Source: Prauserella flavalba (lineage in GTDB: Bacteria > Actinomycetota > Actinomycetes > Mycobacteriales > Pseudonocardiaceae). Taken from it: a stretch of DNA of 64,000 nt. Below the pieces are notes generated by a model that saw only the letters and a program-made list of their open reading frames with translations, was not told the DNA's origin and ran no database searches. The stretch's first letter is position 1. Each line of letters opens with the position of its first letter. A program made the translations under genes and the position numbers. Location: the NCBI RefSeq assembly GCF_003202235.1, contig NZ_MASU01000018.1, forward strand, positions 1 to 64,000, in the 5' to 3' direction. Below are positions 22,513 to 57,719 of this stretch, in pieces.

Positions 22513-24642
22513 TCACTTGTGGCCTACGACTACCAATTCGTCCCGGGCGCGAGTGGCGGCTACGTACCGCAGAGATCGACGGCGAAGCTCGGCGTCGGCT
22601 CGTTCGGATGGGGCTAGCGCTTCCAGGCGTGCCAATTCCACTGGGGACGGACGGTCGGCCGCGATCACGACCTTGGAGAATTCCGTTCCCTTGGCGCGGT
22701 GCATGGTCATGACTGCCACGCGTCCCTGCGGTGGTCGGTCCCGATCGACAGCGCGGGCATCGACGCCACGCTCGGTGAGCGCCGTCACCACCCGGTCACG
22801 ATGGAAACGGTCCGGCACGAGGACCGCCACGGTGTCGGCATCGGTTCCGGCCCTTACCCAAGCCTGGACATGGTCGCCGATGACCTGCAATTCCGCACCG
22901 AGGGATTCGACGGGAACGATCGTCGGTCCGGGGCCGGTCCGCGCCGAACGGTAGCCGGTGGTTTCCGCCTGGTCTTCCAGGTCGATGTACTGACCACCTT
23001 CGATGATGTTCATCGCATAGTGCAGGTTTTGCGCAGTGGTTCGGTAGTTCAGGGTGAGTCGCTGCGAACGACCAACGATCGCTATGCGGTACCGGCTCAG
23101 CACGACACGCGTTCCGTAGATGCGTTGGTGTGCGTCTTCGGCGATGAACAGGTCATTCGGATGCTCGTTGACGAGTGCACGCAGCAACTGCCAGTGGCTT
23201 GGCGAGAGGTCTTGGCCTTCGTCGACGAGAACGTGGTCGGCTGGCTTATCCGTCTGCTTAGCCAGATGTGCGGCAGCGACGGCAGCAGCTTCCGAGAAGT
23301 CGAGACTCCCGTCGACGCGACTTTGCGCCCGGTACGCCGCGATGAGCTCCCACACAGCTGAGCGCGTGGCCCGATCCAGTGCTACGCCCCGACCAGAGCG
23401 GCGCACTCGAAGGTATTCCGCCTCGTCGTGGATCTTGTTTGGGAGCACGACGTGCCCGTACTCGCTCGACAAGAACGACTCGTTGGCCAACGCTGGCGAA
23501 AGTGACGTACCGGTCGACTCGACGATTTCTCGCCATCGGGTGCCGGCTGTTCGGGCGAGTGGCGCGGACCGGTCTTCCCCGAGCACCTCACGTACGCTGG
23601 CGGCCAGGCTGCTTCCGGCACTGCGCAGAACAGCAGATGCAAGGGCATCCACACCGGTGACGTACACACCCGGCTGGCCGAGCTTCTTCGCCTGCGGTAC
23701 TCGTGGGTCGAGTTGCGTGAGGCTGTCGCTGAGCGCATCGGCAAGGTTCGTGGTGAAGGTGGTCAGCACGATACGTGCATCAGGGTCACGGCGCGCCAGC
23801 GCGCGAGCACGGTGCACGAGCACGACAGTCTTGCCGGTGCCTGCTCCTCCAGACAGCCTGAACGGGCCTTGGTAGCTGCGTTCGACGTAGCGGCGCTGCT
23901 CGGGATGCAGGAAGATCCGCCAGGCGCCGAAGTCGCCTCCTTCGATGACGCGACGCAGCTCGTCCTGATCGCCGATCAAGGCGTACTGGAGGGCCGCTCC
24001 TGGTCGTTTGAGGGAGTGCAGAACGTCCGCGTCGTCATCTCCCGAAGGAGCGGTCTTCTCGAGTTCCATCCGCGACACGACCGAATCGACCGTGTCGCCA
24101 GCAGCGAGATCGACCAGGATCGTGCCGATCCAGCCGTCGTGCCGCTGGGCAAGATCCAACACAGCGTCTTCGTCCACGGCGGCCAGCGCCTGATCGGCTA
24201 CGCGCTCCGGCAGTCCGAGAGTCGTGACCAACGCGTCGCGGTCATGCCCCAGACGCACGAGCAACGACTGGCTCGCCGACGGCTTGGCGTCCGTCGGGAA
24301 CGACTCGGCCGGTGGTTCGACCTCGACGATCTGCGGTAGCCCGTTGATCGGGTTGACGCTCAACCGAACCCGGCACGCCACGGCGATCGCGTCGTCGTGC
24401 GGCCAGATGCCGTGGATGACGTAGTGGCGCTCACCGCCACTGTCGAGGCGGAACATGACTGCTCGCCAGAAGTTGTCCACCCTGCCTGTGCGAACCCGTG
24501 GATCGGCAGCGTTCTCGATGGGTTCGACGTGCAGGCCAGACGTGGTGTCGTCGATCCCGAGCTTTTGCAGGAATGCCATGGCCTTGCCGCGGATCGAACC
24601 GTCGATCTTGCTGGCCAGCTTGCCCATGATGATGGTCGGCAT
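22513..24642 (-). CDS. RelE-like domain fused to UvrD/Rep-type helicase
   Basis: A 709-aa protein. Residues 1-105 resemble RelE/ParE toxins (GLHVEPIENAADPRVRT, DNFWRAVMFRL, HYVIHGIWPHDDAIAVA). The rest is a superfamily-1 helicase: Walker A GGAGTGKT near 265-272, motif II VDEGQD near 473-478, motif IV LNYRTTAQ, motif V MTMHRAKGTEFSKVV and motif VI YVAATRARDEL near the end. Start ATG 24642 has a GGGGGAAC ribosome site 16 bases after the stop of the preceding large helicase, making it the last gene of the drmD operon. The linkage suggests a role in DNA processing during defence; the RelE-like part may bind nucleic acid or be a silenced toxin. The fusion type is known in actinobacteria; its role here is inference. 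Confidence 0.85.
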   Translation of the reverse strand: MPTIIMGKLASKIDGSIRGKAMAFLQKLGIDDTTSGLHVEPIENAADPRVRTGRVDNFWRAVMFRLDSGGERHYVIHGIWPHDDAIAVACRVRLSVNPINGLPQIVEVEPPAESFPTDAKPSASQSLLVRLGHDRDALVTTLGLPERVADQALAAVDEDAVLDLAQRHDGWIGTILVDLAAGDTVDSVVSRMELEKTAPSGDDDADVLHSLKRPGAALQYALIGDQDELRRVIEGGDFGAWRIFLHPEQRRYVERSYQGPFRLSGGAGTGKTVVLVHRARALARRDPDARIVLTTFTTNLADALSDSLTQLDPRVPQAKKLGQPGVYVTGVDALASAVLRSAGSSLAASVREVLGEDRSAPLARTAGTRWREIVESTGTSLSPALANESFLSSEYGHVVLPNKIHDEAEYLRVRRSGRGVALDRATRSAVWELIAAYRAQSRVDGSLDFSEAAAVAAAHLAKQTDKPADHVLVDEGQDLSPSHWQLLRALVNEHPNDLFIAEDAHQRIYGTRVVLSRYRIAIVGRSQRLTLNYRTTAQNLHYAMNIIEGGQYIDLEDQAETTGYRSARTGPGPTIVPVESLGAELQVIGDHVQAWVRAGTDADTVAVLVPDRFHRDRVVTALTERGVDARAVDRDRPPQGRVAVMTMHRAKGTEFSKVVIAADRPSPVELARLEALAPSERADAELRRRSLRYVAATRARDELVVVGHK

Positions 24643-24658
24643 CGTTCCCCCGAATTTC

Positions 24659-27600
24659 CTATGCCGATGCGAGTGCGACGACGATCTGTTCCAGTGTGGG
24701 TTCCACGACCTGCCATCCTGCCGCAATCAAGTCCTCGCGGTCCTGCTGGGGCGTGTGGTCGAAGGCAACGGCGACGCGCTGTGCAGGCCAGCTAACATCG
24801 AGCATGATCCCGTCCGGTCCTTCGGTGCCGATCGTCGGTGGCACAATCCCGCCGTGCGCGGCAAGCGCAGTGATCAGCTGGCGTTCGAAGTCCGAGGCGG
24901 CAGCGTCGTACACGTCGGCCCAGGCACCCAGCGGCCTGTCTTCCTGTGTCGATTCCTCCACTGGCGCCGATGCCGGGGTGACCAGACTGGTCGTGGTGAT
25001 CACCGTCGGCCAATCGCGCGCGGTGAGCGCGTTGGCCAGTCGCAGCCAACCACGCCATGCATCGGCGTGCGCATCGTCCAAGGTCTCGTCGCGGTCGTCC
25101 AGCACGACCGCAACTCGCACCACCATCGTCGGCAGCATCTCGACGACGGCGGCGAGCGCGCCTGCCCGGTACAGGTGGACCTTGCGATCGCCAACTGGGA
25201 GGTGTTCGTCGAGCAGGACCGCCCTGGCGACGACCTCAAGGTCGATGGTGTCGGTGACGGAAACCGGTTGGGCGCCGCGGGAGAGGAGCATCGGCACTGC
25301 CCTGCCGACCGCGCGAACCGCGTCCGGAGCCGGCGCGAGCACCCAATCGACAAGCCACTCGACTGGGCCGCGCCCGAGTGCCCGGTATGCCTCCGGCGGC
25401 GCCTGGAACTGCGGGACCGTCTGCAGGCTCCCAGCCAGGTCCGGGTGGTACCAGGTCGGCTTTTCGGGTGCGTCGAGATCCGCCACGGTGACGGCGACGA
25501 CGAGCACGCCGGCGTCACGCAGGTTCGCGCGTTTCGCGGCATCGTCGGCGAGCCTGTTGCAGGTCGACGTGGCGTGGTAGGCGCGACCATCGGTGAAGAT
25601 GGCGACGTCCGGCACGTTCATGTCGTTGGTGTGCAACAGAAAGTCCGGTCGCGCGTCGGCCACGTTGGCCTGCGGGGTCAACGTCCATTGCCGGTGCCCG
25701 CCGGGCAAGGTGAACCGGACTACGTTGCCTGTGGAGCCGGGCGTCTCGGTGACGGTGGCGCCCGCACGACGGAGCTTGGCGACGAACAGCCGGTGGAACG
25801 CACGTTCCAGATGAGAATCCGGTTCCTCGTGGGGCGCTACTTCGGTCACCTTCCAGCCCATTTCGGGTGCTGTCGACTCGTCGGCAGGCAAGCCCAGCAG
25901 GGTACGCAGGTGCCGTTCTGCCGACGACCTGGATGCTCGGCGGACCATGCCAGGGGCCACGAACGGCAGCAGACAGCGATGACAGGCCAGGCGTTGCTCG
26001 TGCCTGCATTCGCACTCACGCACCCGTTGCCAGGCAAGCAACAGCAACTCACGCAGTCGATCCGGGTCGGCGGTTTCGGCGAGATAACCGGTGCCACCGG
26101 GCACCACGTCGTGCAGGAGGATCGCGTCGTGGTTGTCGGCGCCGTCCGAATGCGTCGGATCCACCACAAACTCGACCTGGATGTGGTCTGGGTGGCCACC
26201 CAGACGCTCACGCAATCCGAGCAGGAGCGCAGCGCCGATGCTGGGAACCGCGAAGTCGTCGCCAACGGTGACCGCTCGCGGCAGCCTGATCAGCAGCCCT
26301 TGGGTACGCAACGTTCTGGACAATGCGATCGTGCTGGTCACCTCATCCGTCGCCGTCCGGTAAGGACACCATGGTCGGTGCTCGTGCGGCCGGTTACGTC
26401 CGGTCTCGGTGTCTTTCTTCCCGCACCCGGAGCACACCCGGAACAGCTGCCCCAGCCGCTCCTCACCGCTGATCCTGCGGGTGGCGCCCTGGCCAGGTGC
26501 TCCAAGGTTGATCCAGCGAATGTCGACGCTGCGCAGGTAGGTGCAGCCGAGCCCGGTGTCCTCGACGAACCAGCGACGCACCACGTTCGCCGGGTCGATG
26601 TCGGCGGCGGTGACGACATTGAAGGCGGCCCGGTCTCGGTCGTCGCGCCGGTCGGAGATCGCCACCTCGTCACGCCGGACTTCGGCAGAGACCCTGGTCA
26701 GCTCGACCACGTCGAGACGTTGCCCGGTGTCGGAAATGCCTCGGTCGCCGCATCGGGGACACGGCGGGACAGGTAGGTCTCGGCCGCTCTCGGCGACGTC
26801 CAGGGCATAGCCGCACGACGGACAGAACGCCCAGGTACGAATGGACGCGCCGTCCAGCCCGAGGTCGACCGCGTCGATGGTGATCTCCCAGCCACGGGCG
26901 TAGAACGTGGCGCCGGGAGCGAAGTCGCGCAGCGCCAGCGCGGAACCGCGATTGAACTGGGCTGAGCCATACTCATGTGCACCGGTGTCCGGGTCGGTCC
27001 AGGACAACCCGACGTCGAGAGTGACCGAGTCGTCCAGCAACGTGTAGTTGGGGAGCAGCCCGTACTCCTCCAGCACGCTTATCCAATACGTGCTACGCAG
27101 GTGAGCGAGCTGGCCTGCGGTGAGCTTCGCGGTGGCCCTCGCCGAGCGCAGTGCCTGCTCGTCGTCGTCGGTGGCAGCGGGGGACGTGACCCTGGCTTCC
27201 AGATCCGGCAGCAACTCGGCGATCTTTTCCTGCCGTTGCCGCAAGGTCTCCACCGTGGACTGCCAGCGCGCGCTGGCAGCGTGCACGTGCGCGGCGAAGC
27301 CACTGGTTGCTGGCCCAGAACTGGGCCGTAGCCACTCTCGTAGTTCCGTGACGACGTCGGCAGGCAGGTTCGCGAATGTCGAGGTGAACGAAGCGACGTG
27401 TTCGTCGGCTCCTTGTTCGGCATGCCGGACGAGTTCGCCGAGGAAGGTGCCCGGCTTGTCCGAGCCGATCGCGCCGACCGCGGTGTGCGGATGTGGGCGA
27501 CGCGGGTCGCGGGCGAACCCGTCGGCAAGATAGGCGGTGAACTGGCGGCGCAGGATCTCTTCGGCGGCAAGATACGTGGCTGGCGGACGGACCTCACCGT

Positions 27601-30600
27601 CCACGACGGACAACGGGTCGCCGATCTTGGGGAGCTGGTCGCCGCGCCCGGTGACGAACGCCAGGCTCAACGCGTTGCCGGTCAGCCGACCGGCGCGGCC
27701 GACGCGTTGCAGATAGGAGGCCACGGTGCGTGGCAACGAAGCGAGAAACACCGCGGACAGGTCGCCGATGTCGATACCCATTTCCAGCGTCGGCGTCGCG
27801 ACCAGCACGTTCGGCGCCTGTGGGCTTCCTGCCGCGTTGCGGAACCCGTCTTCGTAGGCCAGCCGGGTCTCGTCGTCGAGCAAGCTGGTGTGCTCACGGG
27901 CGACCACACGACGCATGTCCGGTGATGCGTACAAACGTCGGTAGAAGTTGTCCGGCAACTCCTCCTCGCGCAGCCGGCCGCTGCAGCGGACGTGCAAGCA
28001 GGGTGCAGCGAGGAGCTGATCGATGGTGGCGGGCGAACCGGGCGTCACGGCCCGGCAGGTGTCACAGACCAGAAGTCGCGGCGTGATGTCCGGCGGCGCG
28101 ATCACGACGCCGGATGCCGGGATGGCGTACACGGTGGCACCGGAGTCGCTGATAGTCGTGCTGAGCACACCGTCTCGGGCGAGCCGGTCGAACAGCAGCT
28201 TGGCCAGCCGCCCACCATCCAGCGGAGACACGTCGAGCACTCGGCTGGTCCAGCGGGCATACCAGGACTGGGATGCGGTGACGGCATCCACGCCGCGCCC
28301 GGTTGCGCCGGTCCCACCGACTTTCGGGTACGCGGGAGCGGGCCGGTTTCTGGGGAACGCGGGCATACCTTCGTGACGGGGCCGGCCACCCCAGATCGAC
28401 CAGTCGCGGCCGTCCTCGGCGCGTAGCCGATCGAACCATGGGTGGTCGATGGCGCCTTGCGCGCGCATCCGGTCCAGCACGCCACGAACCCACGCGACCA
28501 GCAGGGCGTCGTCCCGGGTGACGCCATCGAGCTTGTCCTGCCACGACGTGCCCACCAGCGCGGCCCGCGCGACACCTGCGACGCGGTCCGCCGTCCCAGC
28601 TTCCACCTCGACGGCCACCGCGCCGGTGAGTTCCAGGGTGCGTCCAGTTCGTGAGTTGAGCCCGAATTCCAACGCAGCGGCCAGCGCGAGCCGTTTCCGC
28701 ACCCGCGACTGCACGGCTGCAGGCACCGCTCGCAGCGTCGGGGCGTTCCAGAACGGGACGAACGATTCCCGGTCGGCACATTCCGGTGCGAGGATGCGAT
28801 AGCGGGCGAACGGGTCGTCGCCCGCCCTCCGGATCACCTCGTCGATCAGCGATTCGAGGGTGAGCTGGCCGTCGGCGACGGCGTCGGCGAAGACCGAACG
28901 CAGGGTGAGGGTGTGCGAGCGAGCCTGGACGAACCCAGCCCGGTGCGCGGCGTCCTGCACCGAGTCGGTGAACACCAGTGCCTTCTTCTCCCGGGAGTCT
29001 AGGCTGGGCGTGCCGAACAACGTGGACAGCGACACCGACAGCAGAGTGGCGATCGCGCTTCCAAGGAACCGGATGCCGTCTTCCTGGCCGCAAGACGGGC
29101 AGGTGTCCTTGTTTGCGTCGGCGTCTGCGTCGGGGCCGGTGGTGGTGAGCACCGGCAGGATCCAGCCGTCGCGTAGTTCTGGGTCGTCCTCGGCGACGCT
29201 GGTGAGCAGTTCCCGGTGCCGCACGGAGAACCACATCAGTCCCTCGAGGGGCCGGTCGCCTTCCAGGCCCGCGACGGCTTCGACGGGTGCGTACAGCAGC
29301 GCCCGGAACCGGCCCTCACGGGCAGCGTGGTTGCGCCGGATGTCGTCGTCTTCGACGGCCAGGCTGTTGCCGACTGGGGCAAGCCCGACACCCCAGCCGG
29401 ACCGGCCGCAATGCCTGCAGAAGATGGCCGGGAACGACGGCCGGGGCTCGGTGTCGTCCGCGACGACCGGACCGTCGTCGCTCCAGCGGAACCGGGTGGT
29501 CGCGGCGGCGGTCCGGTCGATGCGGGTCAGCTCGCGGACCCATTGGTGTACCTCCACCGACAACGCTGCCCGGCCCGCGACCGCGCGTACGTGCCCGAGT
29601 GCACCAACTACGTAGCCGACGAACTCCGGGTCGGTGTCCAGCACGTCGGTGGCCAGGTCGTCGAGGGCGATCGCGGATTCGGTGTGCCGGACGAGGTCGT
29701 GGATCAGCGGGTGGGCCCGGCATGCGGCGTTGAGCTGTTCCGGCGTGGCGTCGGCGAACGCCCTTTCGTCGAGACCGTAGAGCGCTCCGAGCATGGTGCG
29801 CGCGAGTCGTTCGCCGGTCGGGTCGTGTCCGAGCTCCACGACCTTGTTCACGATGCCTCGCACGTCGAGGTCGGCCAAGGGGACCGGAGGATGTCCCGGG
29901 TTCGCCCCCGCGGACCATTCGTCGAGGCTGAGCCGGGTCTCGGTGACTACCGCATCGGCGTCGAACTCCTCGCCGAACACGGTGGCGGCGAAGTCGAGCA
30001 TGACCGTCGGGTCGCCCTTGTCACCCAATGTAGCGGAGGTGGCGACCGGTGCGGCAAGCCCAAGCGGCCGTCGTCGCGCGGCGGCGTCGATGCTCGGGTC
30101 GTCGTCGTTCCAGTGGCTTTTCAACGCGAGGCCGAGGCGCCGCAGCAGCATGGCGACATCGGTGCCCTGCGCGCCGTCGTAGGTGTGGAATTCGTCGAGC
30201 ACCACGTAACGCAGACTGGTCGCCGACTGCCGCCAAAGCTCCTGGTCCTCGGCGCGCAACAGCAACTGGTCGAGCATCTTGTAGTTGGTGAGGAGGATGT
30301 CCGGCGCTGTGTCCCGGATGACGCCGCGTTCGGTGATCAGCCCGTCTTTGGTGACTCTGGTGCGCGTCGGTCCTTCCTGGCCGATGTAGAGAGCTGCGGT
30401 GACGTCGGCGAGTTCGCGATGCGTGGTGAGCAGCGTGGTCAGCCTCGCCGCCTGGTCGTTGGCGAGCGCGTTCATCGGGTACAGGATCAGCGCCTTGGTG
30501 CCCTTTTCGCCGTTGCGCCGGGCACGCAGGACGTGGTCGATGATCGGGTACAGGAAAGCCTCGGTCTTGCCGGAGCCGGTGCCGGTGGTCACCAACGTCG

Positions 30601-30904
30601 GCAGCGGGCGGCGGTCCTGTCCATCCGCTCTGGATGCGAGCCGGGCGAACGCGGCGGCCTGGTGTCCGTAGGGCGGGAAGCCCTCGTACCAGTCGAGCGT
30701 GTCGCGCCAGCCGTCGTCGGCGGGCCGGAACGGCAGGCGGAGGCGGACGTAAGGCCCTTTGAACATGCCGGTGTCCGGATCGGATAGAAACCGGTCGAGC
30801 GCCTCGCGTGCATCCCCGTCGGTCAGCCCGAACGTGGTCGTCAGGTAGTCGACGAGCCCGGTCCTGATCCGATGGGCCTGCAGCGTCGGCAGCAGCTCAC
30901 TCAC
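24659..30904 (-). CDS. Giant DEAD/DEAH helicase with DUF1998 and C-terminal PD-(D/E)XK-like domain (DruE-like)
   Basis: A 2081-aa superfamily-2 protein. Walker A TTGTGSGKTEAF near residue 105, DEFH near 232, VATSATLGD near 300, helicase-C motifs LVFTDSVQDAAH near 640 and ATPTLEMGIDIG near 1035 with QRVGRAGR near 1070. Cysteine pairs (CRHCG, CPSCG, CDTC, CPRCG, CSGCG) suggest several zinc sites. A DUF1998 region has HDVVPGGTGYLAE and CECRHEQRLACHRCLLPF near 1635. Near 1750-1800 a DUF559-like nuclease core (RPDFLL, VAIFTDGRAYHAT, DDAAKRANL, GVLVVAVT) follows. Size and domain order recall DruE of Druantia, but sequence identity cannot be judged here. GTG overlaps the drmMI stop (GTGA), so it belongs to the drmD operon. 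It probably translocates on DNA and may cut it. Confidence 0.85.
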   Translation of the reverse strand: MSELLPTLQAHRIRTGLVDYLTTTFGLTDGDAREALDRFLSDPDTGMFKGPYVRLRLPFRPADDGWRDTLDWYEGFPPYGHQAAAFARLASRADGQDRRPLPTLVTTGTGSGKTEAFLYPIIDHVLRARRNGEKGTKALILYPMNALANDQAARLTTLLTTHRELADVTAALYIGQEGPTRTRVTKDGLITERGVIRDTAPDILLTNYKMLDQLLLRAEDQELWRQSATSLRYVVLDEFHTYDGAQGTDVAMLLRRLGLALKSHWNDDDPSIDAAARRRPLGLAAPVATSATLGDKGDPTVMLDFAATVFGEEFDADAVVTETRLSLDEWSAGANPGHPPVPLADLDVRGIVNKVVELGHDPTGERLARTMLGALYGLDERAFADATPEQLNAACRAHPLIHDLVRHTESAIALDDLATDVLDTDPEFVGYVVGALGHVRAVAGRAALSVEVHQWVRELTRIDRTAAATTRFRWSDDGPVVADDTEPRPSFPAIFCRHCGRSGWGVGLAPVGNSLAVEDDDIRRNHAAREGRFRALLYAPVEAVAGLEGDRPLEGLMWFSVRHRELLTSVAEDDPELRDGWILPVLTTTGPDADADANKDTCPSCGQEDGIRFLGSAIATLLSVSLSTLFGTPSLDSREKKALVFTDSVQDAAHRAGFVQARSHTLTLRSVFADAVADGQLTLESLIDEVIRRAGDDPFARYRILAPECADRESFVPFWNAPTLRAVPAAVQSRVRKRLALAAALEFGLNSRTGRTLELTGAVAVEVEAGTADRVAGVARAALVGTSWQDKLDGVTRDDALLVAWVRGVLDRMRAQGAIDHPWFDRLRAEDGRDWSIWGGRPRHEGMPAFPRNRPAPAYPKVGGTGATGRGVDAVTASQSWYARWTSRVLDVSPLDGGRLAKLLFDRLARDGVLSTTISDSGATVYAIPASGVVIAPPDITPRLLVCDTCRAVTPGSPATIDQLLAAPCLHVRCSGRLREEELPDNFYRRLYASPDMRRVVAREHTSLLDDETRLAYEDGFRNAAGSPQAPNVLVATPTLEMGIDIGDLSAVFLASLPRTVASYLQRVGRAGRLTGNALSLAFVTGRGDQLPKIGDPLSVVDGEVRPPATYLAAEEILRRQFTAYLADGFARDPRRPHPHTAVGAIGSDKPGTFLGELVRHAEQGADEHVASFTSTFANLPADVVTELREWLRPSSGPATSGFAAHVHAASARWQSTVETLRQRQEKIAELLPDLEARVTSPAATDDDEQALRSARATAKLTAGQLAHLRSTYWISVLEEYGLLPNYTLLDDSVTLDVGLSWTDPDTGAHEYGSAQFNRGSALALRDFAPGATFYARGWEITIDAVDLGLDGASIRTWAFCPSCGYALDVAESGRDLPVPPCPRCGDRGISDTGQRLDVVELTRVSAEVRRDEVAISDRRDDRDRAAFNVVTAADIDPANVVRRWFVEDTGLGCTYLRSVDIRWINLGAPGQGATRRISGEERLGQLFRVCSGCGKKDTETGRNRPHEHRPWCPYRTATDEVTSTIALSRTLRTQGLLIRLPRAVTVGDDFAVPSIGAALLLGLRERLGGHPDHIQVEFVVDPTHSDGADNHDAILLHDVVPGGTGYLAETADPDRLRELLLLAWQRVRECECRHEQRLACHRCLLPFVAPGMVRRASRSSAERHLRTLLGLPADESTAPEMGWKVTEVAPHEEPDSHLERAFHRLFVAKLRRAGATVTETPGSTGNVVRFTLPGGHRQWTLTPQANVADARPDFLLHTNDMNVPDVAIFTDGRAYHATSTCNRLADDAAKRANLRDAGVLVVAVTVADLDAPEKPTWYHPDLAGSLQTVPQFQAPPEAYRALGRGPVEWLVDWVLAPAPDAVRAVGRAVPMLLSRGAQPVSVTDTIDLEVVARAVLLDEHLPVGDRKVHLYRAGALAAVVEMLPTMVVRVAVVLDDRDETLDDAHADAWRGWLRLANALTARDWPTVITTTSLVTPASAPVEESTQEDRPLGAWADVYDAAASDFERQLITALAAHGGIVPPTIGTEGPDGIMLDVSWPAQRVAVAFDHTPQQDREDLIAAGWQVVEPTLEQIVVALASA

Positions 30905-38537: not shown

Positions 38538-38545
38538 ATGCAGTC

Positions 38546-38962
38546 ATGGACCACCCGCCAACGCCGCTGGACACCGCGACGTCTGCTCGACTGCGCCGCC
38601 AGCCCCGCTCGGGCACGAAACCAGAGGTGACGTTGCGCCGCGAACTCCATCGCCGGGGTCTGCGGTTCCGGGTCAACCATCCCGGCCTTCCCGGTCGTCC
38701 GGACATCGCGCTCACCAGGGTGAAGGTCGCGGTGTTCGTGGACGGCTGCTTCTGGCACCGCTGTCCCGAGCACGGCACGTTGCCACACACCAACCGGGAG
38801 TGGTGGCAGGCCAAATTCGATCGCAACGTCGACCGCGACCGAGCCAAGGACAACGCGCTCGGCGAACTCGGCTGGCACGTGTTGCACGTGTGGGAACACG
38901 AGCCGACCGAATCGGCCGCCGATCGGGTCGAGACCGAGTGGCGGCGCAGGGTCATGAGCTGA
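38546..38962 (+). CDS. vsr: Very-short-patch-repair (Vsr) endonuclease
   Basis: A 138-aa Vsr-fold nuclease. Visible are the RSGTKPEVTLRRELHRRGLRFRV N-terminal helix (with conserved Glu), GRPDIALTR, the metal-site strand VAVFVDGCFWHRCPEHG (Asp and WH near residues 72-77) and GWHVLHVWEHE. Vsr nicks beside T:G mismatches formed when 5-methylcytosine deaminates; the island also carries a C5-methyltransferase, so a repair role fits. It stands alone on the plus strand between drmB and drmD, and its last 11 bases overlap the drmB 3' end. It could instead serve as the nuclease of the defence system. Confidence 0.92.
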   Translation: MDHPPTPLDTATSARLRRQPRSGTKPEVTLRRELHRRGLRFRVNHPGLPGRPDIALTRVKVAVFVDGCFWHRCPEHGTLPHTNREWWQAKFDRNVDRDRAKDNALGELGWHVLHVWEHEPTESAADRVETEWRRRVMS

Positions 38963-40688
38963 TCCGCAGGTAACCGCGGGGACCGAACAGTGTGCCCCGA
39001 TTCAGGAACCGGTTGAAGAACCTGCACGACGGCTCGCCCAGATGCACGCAGGCGCTGCACGCTCCACTGCCACGGCTACACCCCGGATCCAGCGGGCATC
39101 GGTGCTCGGCGTCCACGAACGCCGTCAATAGATCATCCAAATTCGACTCGAATACCGCCTGCAAACCACCTAGCACGAAGTCACCCCGTGCCGCCGCGTA
39201 CACGAAGAATCCCACGTGCCCGGGAACCAGGTACTCGCTCAATGCGTCTCGTTCGATCCCGGAGAATGCCGCCGTTTGCCGGATGAACCGGTGCGCGTAG
39301 GTGTGGATCAACTGCAGCAGGTCCGCGCCCGCAGAGCCGGTAGACTGGGGGGCCTTCTTGTCCGGCGGTGTGATGGATTCCAGGATCGCCACCCTAGCCA
39401 CGACAGGATCGGTGTCCCCCGCCGACCACCCTGCCAGCGCGTGGCCCTGCCCGGTGAGCCAGTTCGCCGCCCGTACCGGGTCCAAGCGAACCAGGTACGC
39501 CTCGGTCTCGGCCAGGTTGCCGTAGAGCCGGTAGCCACCTCCGCGCCGACGGAACGGCACCAGCGTGCACTTCGATGGGTTGTCGTCGCCCCTGGTGAAC
39601 CCATACATGGCCGTGAGGACCGGGAACCGGTCGACCAAGTCGAGGCCGTCGATACCCGCGCGCGCCAGCGCCGCTGGGTAGGCTGTGCGATAGCGCTGAT
39701 CGAGTTGGTCGCCAGGCGTTGCGCTGCGCAATGCGGTGGTCGGCTGCCTGCTTTCAGCGAGCGCCATGGCGATGTCGACAGCCGCGCGCTCCGCCTCATC
39801 TCGACGCGCTTCGGATAAGGAATCAACCGGATGCTCACCGGGTTTCGCCAGTTGCCCGCCCTGTTCGGCCATGTCCGCCATTTTCTTGGCGAACGTCTCG
39901 TCCATGCCATCTTTGATCAGCTTGGCGAGGAATTCTTCCTTGGTCTGCTTCGATTCGACGTCCGCCGGACGCTGCGCGGTGAGACCGTCCACCACCCACG
40001 CCAGTGCCTTCCGAGCGCCGCCCGCCAGCTTGAGATTTTCCCGATGTTCCGGGCGAGGCGGGTTGATCAGAACGAGGCCGCGTGGCGTGTAGACGGTGCG
40101 CGCCTTGTGCACATTCCACCGGAACGTACCGTTGCCACACGGACATGGTTTGTTGAACCCGAGTCCGGTCATCGTTTTCGTATGGCATTCCGGACATTCG
40201 AACGTGATGTCAGCCGCCTTGGCACTTTTCGGAATGACGACCTTGACATCGTCGTGGGTGACACAGCGCCGGATCCATGGAACTTCGATTCGACCGCAGT
40301 CGTGAATGCCGACGAAGTGCAATTGACCCCAGCGGCGCTGTCCGCATTTACACGACCGGTTCAGGCTTTTCCCGATGCGTTTGCAGGCGCGACACAACCA
40401 CACCTCCGGATACCGTTCGACGGTGACGCCGCGCCGCTCGTCCAATTCAACGACCTCGACCGATGCACCCCGATGCAGTTCCGCCCCGATTCCACTGTCG
40501 TTGTCGTTCGCAGTCCACGCCGCGATCTCGCGCAGCAAACTCCACCGCACTCGATCGATGTCCACCTCGATCGCCGAAGGCGCCGACCATTCGGTGACCC
40601 GATAGATGTCGCCGCGAAGGTCGACGGTCTGCTCCGGCAGAAATGTCCGCAGGATTTGACTGCCGCTTCGACTTCCCAAAATCGTCAT
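38952..40688 (-). CDS. drmB: DISARM protein DrmB (DUF1998)
   Basis: A 578-aa protein with a helical core, two zinc-ribbon-like modules (CRACKRIGKSLNRSCKCG near residue 97; CPECHTKTMTGL and CPCG near 168-190) and a C-terminal DUF1998 domain (LLQLIHTYAHRFIRQ near 435, VPGHVGFFVYAA, CPLDPGCSRGSGACSACVH near 535). No helicase motifs. Known biology: DrmB forms a DNA-translocating complex with the helicase DrmA. It starts 12 bases after drmA and overlaps vsr tail-to-tail. The assignment is based on domain order and the drmA pairing. Confidence 0.9.
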   Translation of the reverse strand: MTILGSRSGSQILRTFLPEQTVDLRGDIYRVTEWSAPSAIEVDIDRVRWSLLREIAAWTANDNDSGIGAELHRGASVEVVELDERRGVTVERYPEVWLCRACKRIGKSLNRSCKCGQRRWGQLHFVGIHDCGRIEVPWIRRCVTHDDVKVVIPKSAKAADITFECPECHTKTMTGLGFNKPCPCGNGTFRWNVHKARTVYTPRGLVLINPPRPEHRENLKLAGGARKALAWVVDGLTAQRPADVESKQTKEEFLAKLIKDGMDETFAKKMADMAEQGGQLAKPGEHPVDSLSEARRDEAERAAVDIAMALAESRQPTTALRSATPGDQLDQRYRTAYPAALARAGIDGLDLVDRFPVLTAMYGFTRGDDNPSKCTLVPFRRRGGGYRLYGNLAETEAYLVRLDPVRAANWLTGQGHALAGWSAGDTDPVVARVAILESITPPDKKAPQSTGSAGADLLQLIHTYAHRFIRQTAAFSGIERDALSEYLVPGHVGFFVYAAARGDFVLGGLQAVFESNLDDLLTAFVDAEHRCPLDPGCSRGSGACSACVHLGEPSCRFFNRFLNRGTLFGPRGYLRISS

Positions 40689-40700
40689 GTCGTTCCAAGC

Positions 40701-43700
40701 TCAATCGTGAATGGGCGCGGTCGCTTCGACGTCCCGCAGGCTCCTCATCGGCGGATTCGGCCCGATCTCGCCAATGAAGTTCGTCTTCATGGTCGGGTCT
40801 TCAAGGTCGACAAACCATTCCTTCAGCCAGTCGAGGATCTGCTGCTGATGCAGGGAGTCCTCGGCACCGTCGAGGCCGAACACCGCCGCGACCACGTCCG
40901 CCTCCTCCTGCGGCGTCAGCCCGATGATGCGCAGGTAGTCACGCAGCTTCTCGGGCGTGCTCAGCCGCTGCTTACTCGCTGGTTCCCGGATCATCAGCGT
41001 GCGGGCAGCGACCGCACCCGCGATCGTGAGATCGAGGACGCGGCGGCTGCGCCTGGTGATCGGGATCGGATCGACGAACCGGTCGCCCTGGCGCACGTAC
41101 GGGCCGAAATGCCGGAACGTCTGCGCATCCCGCTCGCGGCCGATCTTGTGTAGCACGTACACAAGGCCCGGTCGGGTACGGCCGACCCGCGCAGTCGTCT
41201 GGATGAACTCGGCGGTGGTCAACGGCAGGCCGAGCATCACCATCGTGTTGAGCCGTTCTACGTCCACCCCATGCGAAAGCATCGAACTCGCAGCGACCAC
41301 GTGCACCCGCTCGAGAAAGTCGTCCTCCGGCTTCTCTAGCCGTTCCAGAATCGCCCTAACCTCGTCGAACTCGGTCTGGCCAGTGAGCTGTTCTACGTTG
41401 ATCCCGTCAACGGTGTTGTTGCTGCCGAGGCTTCGCCCAGCAGCCTCCACGTCGTAGAGGGTGGAGCCGTACACGACGTTGGTACCGTACTGGCTGACCA
41501 GCATCTCGGCGTGGTCGGGATCGACGCCTGCTTCCGCACAGACCCTCACCGGTTCCTTGATCAACTCCCTGACACAGCGCTGCAACGTGTCCAGGGTCCG
41601 GTCACTGACATGTTCGAGAGTCACCCCTCGAGGTGCGACGGCGACGAACCGGCGCAACGGTTGATCGGTCGGCACCGTCCAGAACGACTCGCCTGCGCGG
41701 GGCCCAGGTTGAGGAAACACCCGCCCTTCACGCTGGTACAGCACGTCGACCTGCCGTTCGTAGCCCGTCAGCGTCGCGCTGCTAGCCACGATCTTGGCCC
41801 GACTCCGGGTCGTTTCGTACTGCAGATGGTCGAGCAGGCTCTCGTAGTGCGCGTCGACGGCGCCGAGGCTGTCTCGCAGTAGGTGCAATTCATCCTGGAG
41901 CCGTAGGGTCGGGGCGAACCGCTTCGCGTCCATCGGCAACTCCCTCGAACTGCCCTGACAGTTTGGCACCAGACAGCCGTTCGGCGTTTTCGCGCGTTCC
42001 GCGTAGGTGAACCCGTGCCACTTCTCTGAACAGAACCTGCGCGGTGGCCCGACCAGCCCACGCATGGCCTGCTGCAGACCGATCGACGCCGCCTTGTCCA
42101 AAGTGCCGACCACCACCGTCGGTAGGAATCGGAACACCTCCTGGTCCACTACGTACACCGGAAGCGGACGACTCCCGTAACGACAGCTCTTGTTGGTGCA
42201 CCAGTGTTCCAACGTCCAAACCTGCCTGTTGAAGCGCATGCGCAGGTTCTCGTCACGGCAGAATGGGCAGCGCAACAGCACCTGGTACTTGTCTGGCATC
42301 CCCGGGCTATCCGGGCTGACGTCGTCGTGCTTCGCCGTCGCCGTCGGCACGATCTTGTTGGGGGTGCCTGCCTGACCGACGAGGAAGCCAAGGCTGAACG
42401 GCGCCCCGCCGACCTCGTGGTCCTGACGCACGACTTCCGCAGAGGCCAGGCTGTCGGCGAACCGCTGAGTCTGTTGCAAACTGAGCAGACGCAAAGGAAA
42501 TCGGGACCAGGCGGTTACCCCCATCGTCTTTCCGGTGAGCCGGTCGTAGAACGCCGCCGTCAGCAACAACCCCAGGTACGTTTCAGTCTTGCCGCCACCG
42601 GTGGCGAACCAGACGGTGTCGACGTACTTGGCTTCGTCCGCCGGTTCGGCCAGGAACCGGACCGACGACAGCAAGAATCCAACCTGGAACGGTCGCCAGT
42701 CCGGGTACTTTCCCCTGGTGCTGTCGCCGATCGCCTCGTTCATCAATCGGAAGGCCCGTAACAGTGTGGGTGTAGATTCCAGCAACGCAAGGCCGGTACG
42801 GAGCCGGTCCAGCTCGGCAAACACGGCCTGCGCGGACGTGTCGGCCTCGGCACGCATGGCGTCCGTCCAGCCCTCAGCATCCTGCCGGGCGTCCAGCACG
42901 GCTGGTGACCAATGCGCCTCGTCGTACTCGGCCAGCGCATCCACCAGCTTCGCCAGCTGCGGCAACGGGTCCCGGGCCAGGGTCGTGAAGCTCAGGTCCG
43001 GCTTCGCATAGGTGTCGTCCCAGTAGATGGGCCTGCGGGTTTGCACGGTGACGGTGTCCGTGCTGCGGAAGACCCCTGGCGCCACCACGTCGACCCCGAC
43101 GTTGACCCCGTACGCTGGCACGGCCCGGTCGTATCGGAAGCTGTCAGGAAGTGACTCCATCTGGAACGGCACTGTGGCCAGGCCCGAGATTTCGATCTCG
43201 GTCTCGTACAAGTGCGAATCGGTGAGCCCCCTCTGCGGGCTCGTGTTGACCAACTGCACGACCAGTTCGGTCTGCTGGTGCCAGTCCTCCACGTCGACAC
43301 GTATCTCGGCGGTCAGACCCTGTGCGCCCACGGCAGCGAAGGCCGCAGCCAGTTGCGCGGAGCCGAACGATCCGCCGTTGGCGCCGACCGACACTGGCAC
43401 CTTCTCCTCGACGAGGCCCGTACGCCACCAGCGCTTGTCTGGCTCAGGCCCGTCTCTGCCATCCTTCACCCATCCCCTGGCACGAACGATCACGGTCATC
43501 GACCACGACGGAGGGTTTGCCGGGCGCAACCGGATGCCGATGGCACAGGGGTCCAGTCCTTCGGACCGTTCGTCACCAGCAGCTTTCTGGACCTCATCCT
43601 CACAGGCCAACCGCCCCAGCCAGAAGGTTCCCGACGGGGCGACCTCCAGGCGATCCAGTCCATCACCTCGCCCGGCTGCGACGACCCGGCGGTCGAGCCA

Positions 43701-43754
43701 GCCGACGAACGCTTGACACGCTTGCTCCGGCGACTGGGTATTGGTTCCGTTCAC
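40701..43754 (-). CDS. drmA: DISARM helicase DrmA
   Basis: About 1017 aa, superfamily-2 helicase. An N-terminal DISARM-type domain of about 370 residues precedes Walker A WFATGGGKTETYLG (near 385), a long insert with CPFCRDENLRMRF and CTNKSC zinc-type pairs, motif II LQDELHLL (near 625), SSATLTG, and helicase-C motifs SHGVDVERLNTMVM and IQTTARVGRTRPGLVY (near 855). Known: DrmA loads on DNA with free 5' ends together with DrmB. GTG 43754 follows a GGAGGGG site; the frame opens at 43805, which would overlap the upstream sigma gene by 20 bases. It forms the operon sigma-drmA-drmB. Confidence 0.92.
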   Translation of the reverse strand: MNGTNTQSPEQACQAFVGWLDRRVVAAGRGDGLDRLEVAPSGTFWLGRLACEDEVQKAAGDERSEGLDPCAIGIRLRPANPPSWSMTVIVRARGWVKDGRDGPEPDKRWWRTGLVEEKVPVSVGANGGSFGSAQLAAAFAAVGAQGLTAEIRVDVEDWHQQTELVVQLVNTSPQRGLTDSHLYETEIEISGLATVPFQMESLPDSFRYDRAVPAYGVNVGVDVVAPGVFRSTDTVTVQTRRPIYWDDTYAKPDLSFTTLARDPLPQLAKLVDALAEYDEAHWSPAVLDARQDAEGWTDAMRAEADTSAQAVFAELDRLRTGLALLESTPTLLRAFRLMNEAIGDSTRGKYPDWRPFQVGFLLSSVRFLAEPADEAKYVDTVWFATGGGKTETYLGLLLTAAFYDRLTGKTMGVTAWSRFPLRLLSLQQTQRFADSLASAEVVRQDHEVGGAPFSLGFLVGQAGTPNKIVPTATAKHDDVSPDSPGMPDKYQVLLRCPFCRDENLRMRFNRQVWTLEHWCTNKSCRYGSRPLPVYVVDQEVFRFLPTVVVGTLDKAASIGLQQAMRGLVGPPRRFCSEKWHGFTYAERAKTPNGCLVPNCQGSSRELPMDAKRFAPTLRLQDELHLLRDSLGAVDAHYESLLDHLQYETTRSRAKIVASSATLTGYERQVDVLYQREGRVFPQPGPRAGESFWTVPTDQPLRRFVAVAPRGVTLEHVSDRTLDTLQRCVRELIKEPVRVCAEAGVDPDHAEMLVSQYGTNVVYGSTLYDVEAAGRSLGSNNTVDGINVEQLTGQTEFDEVRAILERLEKPEDDFLERVHVVAASSMLSHGVDVERLNTMVMLGLPLTTAEFIQTTARVGRTRPGLVYVLHKIGRERDAQTFRHFGPYVRQGDRFVDPIPITRRSRRVLDLTIAGAVAARTLMIREPASKQRLSTPEKLRDYLRIIGLTPQEEADVVAAVFGLDGAEDSLHQQQILDWLKEWFVDLEDPTMKTNFIGEIGPNPPMRSLRDVEATAPIHD

Positions 43755-43785
43755 CTGCTTTGATCCCCTCCAGAGCGATGCTGGT

Positions 43786-45291
43786 TCAGTCGAACTTCGG
43801 ATCATCGGCGACGTACGACCGCAACGAGGTTATACGTGCGCTTTCACGCAGCTTGGCAATCGACGTTCCCTGAATCTGCCGTATACGCTCGCGAGTCACC
43901 CCGAACGACACGCCGATCTCGTCAAGCGTCTCCTCGTTGCCCGTCCCAATGCCGAACCTGCGTTTCACGACCTCGACCTCCCTGTCCGACAGTTGGGAGT
44001 GAAGCGTGCGTGTCAAATCTTCCCGCATCTGCGCGTGGATGACGATGTGCGCCGGATCGGCGCGGGCATCGCGGCCCTCCTCCGTGATCAGCACATCGGA
44101 CAAACGGAGATCACCATCATCCCCAAGCAGGGCATCGAGGCTCACCACGGGCCTGTCGATGTCCCGTATCGCCTGAATCTGTCCTGATTCCATGCCCGTT
44201 TCCTCAGCGATCTCGGCCAACGCGGGCTCCCTGCCGAGCCGCCCGGTCAGGCCGTGAACCGCCTTCCGCACTTTTTGGACCTGCTCGTGGAAGTGAATGG
44301 GGACCCGGATCAACCTGCCGCGGTCACCGATACCGCGCTCGATCGCCTGTCTGATCCACCACGTGGCATAGGTCGAAAACTTGAAACCCTTCGATCCGTC
44401 GAACTTGTCAGCCGCACGGATCAGCCCACAATTGCCATCCTGGATGCGGTCCGGGAACTCCACCCCGGACGCCTCGTAGCGTGAGTTCTTGGCGATCGAC
44501 ACCACCAGTCTCAGATTGGCGCACACCAATTCGGTACGAGCGCGTCGTCCGCCCTCGATCTGCGAATGCAGGCTGCGGCGCAAGGCCGCGTCCAATGCGT
44601 CACCCGCCGGCCTATCAAGCTCGTTCTTGGCGGCAACGCCTTGTGAGATCAGAGACCACAACTCGATCTCTCGCGCGCCGTCGATCAGGGGATAGCTAGC
44701 CACTGCCTTCAGGTACTGGCTGACGGCGTCCTGGTGGTGCCCGGGGTTCGCGGAGCGCCGCGGCCGGACGGGACTGGAGCTCACCAGTTCGACTCCGGCA
44801 TCCTCCAGCATCTCCAGCAACTCGTGATGCTGGACAGGATTCAGCCCTCGCTTGCTGACGAGCAGCGCGATGTCTGTCTGAACAAGGTGCCGGCCTCTCC
44901 GCAACCAGTCTCCGAGCAGATCGTCGAACGCTTGTCCCACGATGTCGTTAACGTCTCGCAAGGAAATCGACTCTGTCTCGCCCCAGAACAACCAAGCGGC
45001 ATCGCCACTCTGCGCCTCGACTGGGACTCCGTCCCTCATCTGGCTCGACTCTTCGCCCTTCTCGTTGGTGCCACCTTCGCCGGCCGAGCTCGATACACTT
45101 TGGCCCAGAGCGACCAGCAACCGGTCGACGTCGCGGTGAGTCAAGCGATGACGCGAGGCAAACTCGATCAAGGACCGCGCGTCCGAACGCCCATCGTGAC
45201 TCTCCGCGATCGAACGCAGTTCATCGACAAGATCGTCTACGCTCGTGGCGATCGACGGTCGACGCACCGTGTGGCGTGCAGGGGCCGCCAT
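43786..45291 (-). CDS. Primary-type sigma-70 factor encoded at the head of the drmAB operon
   Basis: A 501-aa sigma factor. Residues 120-172 resemble region 1.1 (GDWLRRGRHLVQTDI...ELLEMLEDAGVELV), with a second similar helical block at 37-65. Region 1.2 is near 190-215, region 2 at 253-320 (CANLRLVVSIA, DGNCGLIRAADKFDGSKGF, FSTYATWWIRQAIERG), region 3 at 325-375, and region 4 at 430-485 (LSDREVEVVKRRFGIG, TLDEIGVSFGVTRERIRQIQ). Core regions look intact, so it should bind RNA polymerase. Start ATG 45291 has GGGAGGAG upstream. It is followed 31 bases later by drmA, suggesting that it drives or tunes expression of the defence locus. Its promoter specificity is unknown. Similar sigma genes beside DISARM are not something I can recall. 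Confidence 0.85.
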   Translation of the reverse strand: MAAPARHTVRRPSIATSVDDLVDELRSIAESHDGRSDARSLIEFASRHRLTHRDVDRLLVALGQSVSSSAGEGGTNEKGEESSQMRDGVPVEAQSGDAAWLFWGETESISLRDVNDIVGQAFDDLLGDWLRRGRHLVQTDIALLVSKRGLNPVQHHELLEMLEDAGVELVSSSPVRPRRSANPGHHQDAVSQYLKAVASYPLIDGAREIELWSLISQGVAAKNELDRPAGDALDAALRRSLHSQIEGGRRARTELVCANLRLVVSIAKNSRYEASGVEFPDRIQDGNCGLIRAADKFDGSKGFKFSTYATWWIRQAIERGIGDRGRLIRVPIHFHEQVQKVRKAVHGLTGRLGREPALAEIAEETGMESGQIQAIRDIDRPVVSLDALLGDDGDLRLSDVLITEEGRDARADPAHIVIHAQMREDLTRTLHSQLSDREVEVVKRRFGIGTGNEETLDEIGVSFGVTRERIRQIQGTSIAKLRESARITSLRSYVADDPKFD

Positions 45292-45519
45292 TGACCAAAC
45301 TCCTCCCTCAGCTCCACAGGAACGTCGGGAAGAAGCACCCCAACGTAAGCATGCAGGCGAAGTTGTTTCCCCAATCGTTATCAAGACCAAGACGTAACGC
45401 AAGCGTCCCGACGCAGCCCCCGCTGTGGACCCGCGGACCGACACTCGAAGCCCAGGACGATCACCGGATCGCCCGCCACGAGACGGGGAGTCCTGTCACC
45501 CTCTGCAGCCAGAATCGAC

Positions 45520-45525
45520 TACAGT
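45520..45525 (+). promoter_or_regulatory. -10 box of the C5-methyltransferase gene
   Basis: TACAGT, 6 bases before GTG 45532, fitting leaderless transcription. The divergent gap to the sigma gene is about 240 bases. Confidence 0.45.
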
Positions 45526-45531
45526 CCCCCT

Positions 45532-46665
45532 GTGACTGCACGACCCTTCATGATCTCAGCAGTCGATCTGTTTTGCGGCGTCGGCGGGCTCTCGTACGGC
45601 CTGCGCGATGCAGGCGTCCACATCGCCGCCGGGATCGACGTCGACCCGGCCTGTGCATACCCGTTCCGCACGAACATCGGCGCGCCGTTCCATCAGCAGG
45701 ATGTGCGCCACGTCGAGGCTGACGATCTCGCAGCAATGTGGCCCGCGGACGCCCACGTGCGTGTTCTGGCCGGCTGTGCGCCCTGCCAGCCGTTCTCCTC
45801 CTACCGACGAGGCATCGACACCTCAAAAGAACCCGCCTGGCCGCTGGTCAACGAGATGCTCCGGCTGATCGAAGCGACGTTGCCGGAGGTCGTGACGATG
45901 GAGAACGTGACTCGCATTGTGAGCGCTTCGGTCTTCAAGAGTTTCGTCGTCGGTCTTCAAGATCTTGGATATCACGTCGATGCCGAGTCATGCTACTGCC
46001 CGGCGCACGGGGTACCACAGCATCGCAGGCGACTCGTCCTTCTCGCCTCACGGTTAGGGGTAATCACTGTGCCGAAGGGCACACTCGGCCCCAGTGAGTA
46101 TCCCACCGTGCGCCAAGCGATCCACGCTCTCCCGCCGATTGGACACGGAGAAACACACCCACATGATCGCCTTCACAAGAGCCGCAGCTTGACCAAGATC
46201 AATCTGAAGCGCATCAGGCGCTCCACACCTGGCGGCACATGGGAGGATTGGCCCGAAGAGCTTCGGGCCGCATGCCACAGAAAGGCATCAGGATCGACGT
46301 TCCGCAACGTCTACGCACGAATGAAGTGGGACGAGCCGTCGCCCACGATAACCACCATGGCGTACAACTTCGGCACTGGCCGGTTCGGTCATCCCGAGCA
46401 AGACAGGGCACTCACCTTACGAGAAGCGGCCAACCTCCAAAGCTTCCCGCCGGACTACGAGTTGGTAGCCCCGGACGAGCCAGTCCAGTTCGCTCCGCTT
46501 GGTCGGCTCATCGGCAATGCTGTACCACCTCGACTCGCCGAGGCCATAGGTCAGACGATCGTGGAACATGTCAAGGCGACGGTAGTCGAGCCGACCGACC
46601 CCGCAAACGCTCTGAAGATCCGCCGGCGAAAGCAACCAGCACGCGCACGCAAACGCGGCGTGTGA
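45532..46665 (+). CDS. DNA (cytosine-5) methyltransferase, DrmMII-like
   Basis: A 377-aa Dcm/HpaII-type enzyme with motifs in order: I AVDLFCGVGGLSYGL (residues 10-24), IV GCAPCQPFSSY with the catalytic Cys near 83, VI VTMENV, VIII QHRRRLVLLAS, a target-recognition region of about 110 residues, IX ANLQSFPPDY and X GRLIGNAVPPRLAEAIG. It is divergent from the sigma-drmA-drmB operon and ends the island on the right. In class 2 DISARM a C5-methylase (DrmMII) is the host mark; here it occurs beside the class 1 adenine methylase. It may also be a solitary or partner methylase for another nuclease. Confidence 0.93.
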   Translation: MTARPFMISAVDLFCGVGGLSYGLRDAGVHIAAGIDVDPACAYPFRTNIGAPFHQQDVRHVEADDLAAMWPADAHVRVLAGCAPCQPFSSYRRGIDTSKEPAWPLVNEMLRLIEATLPEVVTMENVTRIVSASVFKSFVVGLQDLGYHVDAESCYCPAHGVPQHRRRLVLLASRLGVITVPKGTLGPSEYPTVRQAIHALPPIGHGETHPHDRLHKSRSLTKINLKRIRRSTPGGTWEDWPEELRAACHRKASGSTFRNVYARMKWDEPSPTITTMAYNFGTGRFGHPEQDRALTLREAANLQSFPPDYELVAPDEPVQFAPLGRLIGNAVPPRLAEAIGQTIVEHVKATVVEPTDPANALKIRRRKQPARARKRGV

Positions 46666-52237: not shown

Positions 52238-52245
52238 CGACACCC

Positions 52246-57712: not shown

Positions 57713-57719
57713 GAACACA

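Follow-up and report, generated by a model that had tools for sequence, protein, structure and literature searches.

A sigma factor gene heads a DISARM-like operon beside an ARMADA type II-like operon in Prauserella flavalba

A nine-gene locus of the actinobacterium Prauserella flavalba raises the question of whether its products form one antiphage machine or two, and of why a sigma factor should be encoded among them. The locus occupies positions 22513-46665 of the window, by which we mean the whole stretch of DNA analyzed here, 64,000 nucleotides at the start of contig NZ_MASU01000018.1; the host genome measures 8.09 Mb in 39 contigs. A preliminary description, made from the letters of the window, had taken the locus for a hybrid of the defense island system associated with restriction-modification (DISARM), in which drmA, drmB, drmD and drmMI were joined by further helicases, nucleases and a second methylase. 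We favor another reading, to which we assign a probability of roughly 0.6: the locus would comprise a sigma-controlled DISARM-like module stably neighboring an ARMADA type II system, giving two antiphage modules on one probably mobile island.

All nine genes lack internal stops (coordinates are collected in Table 1). Seven of them form two minus-strand operons: sigma-drmA-drmB spans 45291-38952, and armA-armB-armC-armD spans 38459-22513. The remaining two are read from the plus strand, vsr from between the operons and dcm divergently from sigma. Frames within the larger operon overlap by 1 base between armA and armB (SNF2 helicase and methylase) and by 4 bases between armB and armC (methylase and DUF1998 helicase). 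Sequence motifs are preserved throughout: PCQPFS, ENV and QxRxR are all found in Dcm, RPDI and VFVDGCFWH in Vsr, whose start lies near 38546, and NPPW at residue 949 of ArmB. The helicase motifs of DrmA are intact, as are Walker A and DEGQD of ArmD, in which the UvrD-helicase match begins at residue 274 of the longest open reading frame (ORF). The preliminary description had placed its named genes correctly, had them intact, and had grouped them into two operons and single genes as we find them; its Vsr is real, on the plus strand. Its gene list was right apart from a RelE part assigned to the UvrD protein, and it left unnamed the sigma factor at 43786-45291, which is the most unusual component of the locus.

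As judged from its sequence, the larger operon agrees with ARMADA type II in gene order and in its main domains. In the portions of a 2025 preprint drawn on here (PMC12458937), that system has four genes in strict order. A helicase of the RapA/BrxHII kind comes first and a PglX-like methylase second; the third product is a YprA-like helicase with a Vsr-type nuclease at its C-terminus, and the fourth is a GajB-like UvrD helicase whose N-terminus is RelE-like. The four E. coli genes alone protected against 13 of 80 phages. The ArmA-ArmB-ArmC-ArmD order of the window (RapA-like, PglX-like, YprA, UvrD) is the same, including Vsr-like motifs at the ArmC C-terminus (E, PD(F/Y)LL and FTDGRAYH, kept in 6 of 6 aligned copies) and a UvrD protein with an N-terminal extension that is conserved in 6 of 6 copies. 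The names drmD and drmMI under which the first two of these genes had been described did not hold. ArmA reached 332 bits against an NCBIfam DISARM_DrmD cut-off of 610, and ArmB scored 188 bits as DrmMI compared to 1488 bits with a type IIG family model of PADLOC; for comparison, genome G356 carries a class 1 DISARM beside its locus, and DrmMI from there scored 1499 bits. Because of the methylase scores, and of a content and order matching ARMADA II, the larger operon is not a drmD-drmMI pair of DISARM with additions. Unlike ARMADA II as published in those portions of PMC12458937, the window copy has a sigma-drmA-drmB operon, vsr and dcm as neighbors. In that paper sigma appears solely in the name of a supplier, and its DISARM-like clade is said to include many uncharacterized classes.

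The smaller operon contains the DrmA-DrmB pair of DISARM. Profiles of DrmA (A1) and DrmB matched the solved DrmAB complex (PDB 7s9v) at 2.4e-72 and 2.1e-14, respectively, and the predicted fold of DrmB (predicted local distance difference test score, pLDDT, 84.7) had chain 7s9v_B of DrmAB as its best match (E 2.6e-13, TM-scores 0.42-0.45), followed by the DUF1998 helicase MrfA at 6.6e-3. The best DrmA aligned stretch begins at residue 460 of the Serratia chain, past its trigger-loop brake, which the portion of PMC9142583 used here places at residues 176-232. Like DISARM, the window combines DrmA and DrmB with a C5 methylase resembling DrmMII; unlike DISARM, it adds a sigma factor and Vsr, and both its DrmA (361 bits against an NCBIfam DrmAS cut-off of 950) and its DrmB fall under the NCBI cut-offs. 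The sigma factor is 46-47% identical over ~260 residues to two other sigma factors of its own genome, and the recognition helices for -10 and -35 elements in regions 2.4 and 4.2 are intact, with YATWWIRQ and TRERIRQI kept. Its longest ORF extends to 45444, and a conserved ATG start lies near 45291.

We asked how far this arrangement extends. A scan of named genomes, anchored on two peptides, returned at least 80 loci, and the counts that follow refer to that sample. The scan loci, the window and our G genomes (genomes and loci carry G and L numbers) gave 96 sequences, which left 82 clade loci after removal of 4 duplicates and of 10 controls with other types of DrmA; stretches read around clade loci mostly covered 10 kb on each side. 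Within the clade, linkage is conserved: drmB was found in all 82 loci, sigma in 70, dcm in 72, vsr in 52, and dcm or vsr in 73. A NERD-nuclease/UvrD protein was present in 30 of the 82, and ArmA-type plus ArmB-type genes in 19, of which those in G356 belong to a class 1 DISARM, leaving 18. The 10 loci of other DrmA clades yielded no sigma at all, together with 8 drmB, 2 dcm and 2 vsr. As a yardstick for chance, four other sigma factors above 160 bits in the 8.09 Mb of the window's own genome correspond to ~1% per 23 kb. In 60 of the 82 clade loci, the gene immediately upstream of drmA is that of sigma. The clade reaches Actinomycetota, Pseudomonadota, Acidobacteriota, Myxococcota, Planctomycetota and Chloroflexota, plus one locus without stated phylum; since both Chloroflexota loci are without sigma, the sigma factor spans five phyla.

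Sigma is also inherited together with DrmA. On a DrmA tree of 84 rows its presence takes 4 changes, compared to 13.3 with shuffled labels (0 of 500 shuffles were as low), which we read as a sigma factor ancestral in the clade and lost in one 10-row subclade and in L102. Pairwise distances correlated with those of DrmA at 0.966 for drmB (80 loci), 0.911 for sigma (70), 0.803 for vsr (54) and 0.702 for dcm (72); the plus-strand sigma copy of L131 was used for this comparison, and a housekeeping RpoD of L131 was left out of the sigma profile. These data bear on the proposal that sigma, vsr and dcm are passengers of defense islands with no functional tie to drmA-drmB. The order of dcm and vsr does differ among loci, and the islands of the window and of G076 sit at different tRNA genes, with islands there collecting unrelated defense genes; the contrast of 70 of 82 with 0 of 10 loci, over five phyla and with tree-clustered presence, nevertheless makes this proposal highly improbable.

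The clearest case outside Actinomycetota is L138, with sigma, drmA and drmB followed by NERD-UvrD, vsr and dcm on the opposite strand. Relatives also occur on plasmids, Roseomonas pOT10-1 (52%) and one of Burkholderia aenigmatica (43%), and in each case a sigma-70 gene and a C5 methylase lie close by and the helicase is annotated only as helicase-related. On the Roseomonas plasmid, which lies outside the sample, vsr, sigma, drmA, a gene of drmB size and a C5 methylase stand in a row; the Burkholderia aenigmatica locus has an insertion sequence inside, and its drmA is annotated in pieces. Phage records contained no DrmA match at E 1e-30. At L098 (5592-7106, plus strand) of Pseudoalteromonas, a TnsD/TniQ gene upstream of sigma-drmA-drmB suggests carriage by a Tn7-like element. 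The portion of the open-access literature covered held no description of a sigma-drmA-drmB-vsr-dcm system, and a prior account elsewhere is possible. The sigma-drmA-drmB module with dcm and/or vsr is the new part of the locus, widespread and apparently unnamed.

How often, and since when, have the two modules stood together? Among 397 genomes of the order, 76 matched DrmA at E 1e-20, and 10 of these, the window's own included, did so at 53% identity or more (the next reached 37%; the G164 copy is in two pieces). All nine genes lie within the ~40 kb read in six of the ten (own, G076, G279, G386, G193 and G015; at least 75%), with order and strands identical except for dcm in G279. Because it recurs in this form in 5 further genomes, the nine-gene set is more than chance. 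In the remaining four (G292, G356, G164 and G378), the 40 kb read contained sigma, drmA, drmB, vsr and dcm and lacked ARMADA II. In a sample of the phylum, 6 of 396 genomes matched DrmA at 1e-80, the clade members being the window's own genome and G015. Across the 22 loci whose DrmA is ~70% or more like that of the window, which form one actinobacterial clade, drmD-type (ArmA) and methylase genes were present in 18; the count refers to these two genes, stretches that end at 10 kb being too short to cover ArmC and ArmD. Of the 60 clade loci outside this group, G356 alone has both kinds of gene, and there as class 1 DISARM. From the opposite side, 43 of 397 genomes matched ArmB at 1e-80, 37 of them outside the composite, and 20 of these neighborhoods were read: 17 showed no drmA-drmB in a 13-20 kb stretch, and 3 (L184, L187 and L193) had a different drmA-drmB upstream of armA. 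The partnership of ARMADA II and drmA-drmB is therefore not obligatory and has seemingly arisen more than once. The 17 composite rows of an ArmA tree group as a single clade (99/98; recovered in 100% of 200 bootstrap trees) and, as far as this tree shows, both systems became neighbors once in the clade of the window.

That all nine genes recur in six composite loci speaks for one integrated DISARM-type hybrid whose nine products form one machine, and so do the three neighborhoods in which drmA-drmB of another clade lies directly upstream of ARMADA II, one of them with dcm and vsr. We nonetheless consider the hybrid unlikely, given that drmD and the methylase are missing from 4 of 22 close loci, that G356 is alone among the 60 remaining clade loci in having both kinds of gene, that ARMADA genes occur without drmA-drmB in 17 of 20 stretches, and that four such genes from E. 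coli are protective by themselves (above). Since the larger operon is ARMADA II and the two halves occur apart, a single DISARM system is not our main reading. The hybrid reading of the preliminary description is supported in part: it keeps its co-conserved nine-gene set, and the extra helicases and nuclease are, as it proposed, conserved companions (ArmA/ArmB-type genes in 18 of 22 close loci); the co-occurrence check returned the same nine genes in five further genomes, and the 17 drmA-drmB-free ARMADA stretches count on the other side.

Some single loci deserve mention here. L187 (G328) has drmA-drmB of another clade, two dcm and a vsr before ARMADA II, an independent look-alike of the composite. 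In G356 (L044/L045), a class 1 DISARM lies on the opposite strand directly beside the sigma-drmA-drmB module, recognized by DrmD- and DrmA-type matches and, with PADLOC, by DrmMI, DrmB and DrmC. Mutual exclusion of NERD-UvrD and ARMADA was considered as well, L076 being the single one of the 22 close loci to have both; shared descent explains this equally, and we make no claim of exclusion.

The question of what sigma does leads to its promoter. GAACN4GTTC is the core of the actinobacterial LexA box. It occurs upstream of sigma in 11 of 70 loci, where a background of 0.0273 per kb predicts 0.8, and L077 joins them when one core mismatch is allowed. Nine of the 11 box loci belong to Micromonosporaceae, and the other two, G015 and G193, share their family code with G279. 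The lexA genes of G015 and of the window's own genome are preceded by the same core. Of the LexA boxes of proteobacterial type, CTGTN8ACAG was found in 0 of 70 sigma upstream regions and GTTCN7GTTC had 4 matches in the same set, three of them in Salinispora; because proteobacterial-type boxes are nearly absent, a general link to the SOS response does not follow. The exact Salinispora box was found in 0 of 3 genomes (G193, G015 and G000). SOS control of sigma is thus supported, at the level of promoter sequence, for part of one family, and the promoter of the window is without a box. At L102 (Salinispora oceanensis), which has dcm, drmA, drmB and ARMADA genes and no sigma, a LexA-type box lies directly before drmA, a picture that would fit loss of sigma with retention of its promoter.

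Sigma might instead be a decoy or an insurance, keeping core polymerase working or titrating a phage anti-sigma factor during a phage attack on the housekeeping sigma, rather than controlling the defense operon. Regions 2.4 and 4.2 stay near those of the host's primary-type sigma factors, which would fit a back-up role, and the N-terminal part fails to align in G292, G356 and G164, as for a fast-changing region. A decoy is nevertheless improbable in our estimate, with sigma immediately preceding drmA in 60 of the 82 loci and tracking DrmA at r = 0.91.

Restriction-type defenses are usually pictured as relying on the host transcription apparatus. Our model departs from this picture. Its gene content, intact motifs, conserved linkage, co-inheritance and the LexA-type box of relatives are observed, and each activity in it, self-transcription and cooperation of the modules included, is inferred. 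Module 1 (sigma, drmA, drmB, vsr and dcm) may be a DISARM-like restriction-modification system whose DrmA belongs to a clade of its own. Host DNA would carry C5 marks set by Dcm, and the targets nicked by Vsr would be T:G mismatches arising from deaminated methylcytosine, or unmarked DNA. Phage DNA that is single-stranded or has a 5' overhang would be bound by DrmA-DrmB and then blocked or unwound, as with Serratia DrmAB. Sigma would direct RNA polymerase to its own operon, perhaps also to the armA and vsr promoters, and defense transcription would then not depend on the housekeeping sigma alone. In many Micromonosporaceae loci the sigma promoter is probably LexA-repressed and would open on DNA damage. 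The contribution of ARMADA II would be three helicases, a Vsr-like nuclease and an N6 methylase, and this module may take the place of the absent DrmC. Many other loci instead have a NERD-nuclease/UvrD protein adjoining drmB, and the nucleases would most likely come from either ARMADA II or NERD-UvrD.

A broader proposal, which we put forward tentatively and with somewhat less than even confidence, is that these loci represent a widespread sigma-DrmA-DrmB-Vsr-Dcm class with its own sigma as a working part, an immune operon that would be switched on by a dedicated form of polymerase, in some lineages after LexA release; DrmAB would come from the class and the nuclease from partner modules (ARMADA II, NERD-UvrD and others). 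A primary-like sigma kept in a DISARM-like class over five phyla offers a testable case for transcription control as part of an immune mechanism; it may also account for the way in which a DrmAB system lacking an evident DrmC stays safe and armed. Likewise, an ARMADA II stably joined to a DISARM-like module bears on the growth of modular defense islands.

Several observations weigh against our reading. Sigma was not found in 12 of 82 loci, namely the 10-locus subclade (which includes some short contigs), L102, and L115, whose contig stops before the position where relatives carry sigma; because of these 12, sigma is not indispensable. Ten of the 70 sigma genes lie elsewhere, beyond drmB on the opposite strand. 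Correlations with DrmA distances are weaker within the 22 close loci (drmB 0.919, sigma 0.825, dcm 0.691, vsr 0.482), and in four loci of Salinispora the stretch contains sigma-drmA-drmB and lacks dcm, vsr and any ARMADA gene. In an ArmB tree of 18 composite rows and 19 others, G248, which is without drmA-drmB in its stretch, nests inside the composite. The 11 box loci are interrelated and hence not independent, lexA of G193 and G279 has imperfect boxes only, and the box is absent before sigma of the window, of other Pseudonocardiaceae, of G279 and of G386. Inspection by eye revealed no specific promoter motif common to sig, armA and vsr; the -10-like sequences TAGGCT, TAGGTT and TACGCT occur in many copies of these three upstream regions, with nothing specific about them. 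On the side of ARMADA II, the C-terminal part of ArmC gave a weak predicted model (pLDDT 63) with no PDB match at E 0.001. The RelE domain of the published ArmD, in the portions of PMC12458937 used here, and of the preliminary description's RelE-UvrD fusion went undetected in ArmD of the window: in 3 of 3 copies the first 240 residues gave no match to a Pfam family at E values up to 1, and a profile of the extension from 6 copies found no RelE or otherwise relevant PDB chain.

Membership in established systems was considered in turn. Class 1 DISARM is drmD-drmMI-drmABC and class 2 is drmMII-drmABC-drmE; DrmC, a phospholipase D (PLD)-type nuclease, is often, not always, part of DISARM. Class 1 was rejected on the DrmD and DrmMI scores given above (332 of 610 bits; 188 compared to 1488 bits with the other family). 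PADLOC models were scanned over 12 window ORFs, with the best 25 matches per protein listed, and the statements that follow refer to those matches. Class 2 was rejected since the DrmMII-like dcm is accompanied by no DrmE among the listed matches of the window proteins. No DrmC was among the listed matches of the 12 ORFs either; the positive control beside G356 scored 143 bits. The partner genes in MZA systems encode MutL, Z1, DUF and AIPR proteins. The window has DrmA-DrmB where MZA has these partners, and membership was rejected, sigma scoring 267 bits (5.9e-79) against an MzaA model with a cut-off of 800 and no MzaB-E being among the listed matches. What the window shares with MZA (mzaABCDE) is a sigma-70 component of a defense system, MzaA in the portion of PMC9523054 drawn on here. 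ArmC resembles DruE models of Druantia, and Dcm matches DruM2 at 241 bits, below DrmMII at 342; with DruE- and DruM-like matches alone, and no DruH or DruA-D among those listed, Druantia was rejected as well.

Table 1. Genes of the nine-gene locus and the tRNA gene at its apparent left edge, in window coordinates.
Feature	Position	Strand	Supporting match
dcm, C5-cytosine DNA methyltransferase	45532..46665	+	Pfam DNA_methylase 7.9e-50; PADLOC DrmMII PDLC02651 1.3e-102
sigma-70 factor, RpoD-like, first gene of the drmA-drmB operon	43786..45291	-	Pfam Sigma70_r2, r3, r4
drmA, DISARM-type YprA-family helicase of a divergent clade	40701..43805	-	NCBIfam DrmAS 1.9e-107
drmB, DUF1998-type partner of DrmA	38952..40688	-	PADLOC DrmB 5.4e-26
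vsr, Vsr-type endonuclease, antisense, between drmB and armA	38546..38962	+	Pfam Vsr 1.7e-19
armA (drmD in the preliminary description), RapA/BrxHII-like SNF2 helicase	35598..38459	-	NCBIfam DISARM_DrmD 1.1e-98
armB (drmMI in the preliminary description), PglX-like N6-adenine methyltransferase	30901..35598	-	PADLOC PDLC03611, 1488 bits, full length
armC, YprA-family helicase; MZB/DUF1998 cysteine cluster; nuclease motifs of Vsr-like type at the C-terminus	24659..30904	-	Pfam DEAD, Helicase_C, MZB
armD, UvrD/GajB-like helicase with conserved N-terminal extension	22513..24642	-	Pfam UvrD-helicase 6.9e-21
tRNA-Arg (CCT), apparent left island edge	21767..21840	+	ARAGORN

The flanks bear on mobility. 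Alignments of the left flank to G255, G076 and G132 stop at most 3 bases from the 3' end of tRNA-Arg(CCT), which suggests that the island starts at this gene. In G076 the nine genes adjoin a tRNA-Ala(CGC) gene instead, and of 22 further stretches checked for tRNA genes, that of G076 is the one that has any. For the tRNA-Arg 3' region (21791-21900), no exact repeat of at least 12 bases that could represent an attachment-site duplication was found in 44000-64000, nor was a right end of the island. Farther out, a large serine recombinase is encoded at 69-1817 on the plus strand, its 3' end overlapping tRNA-Ala(CGC) at 1739-1813 on the minus strand. Beyond the right side of the locus, a frame at 47217-48113 matched no Pfam family and lies next to a protein kinase fragment at 48016-48696 on the minus strand (Pfam Pkinase, residues 90-163), perhaps a decayed gene. 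At 48848-51031 on the minus strand, adjoining the island genes, is a type IV restriction gene of GmrSD type (DUF262/DUF1524), whose product has a DNA-binding tail resembling that of an O6-alkylguanine transferase.

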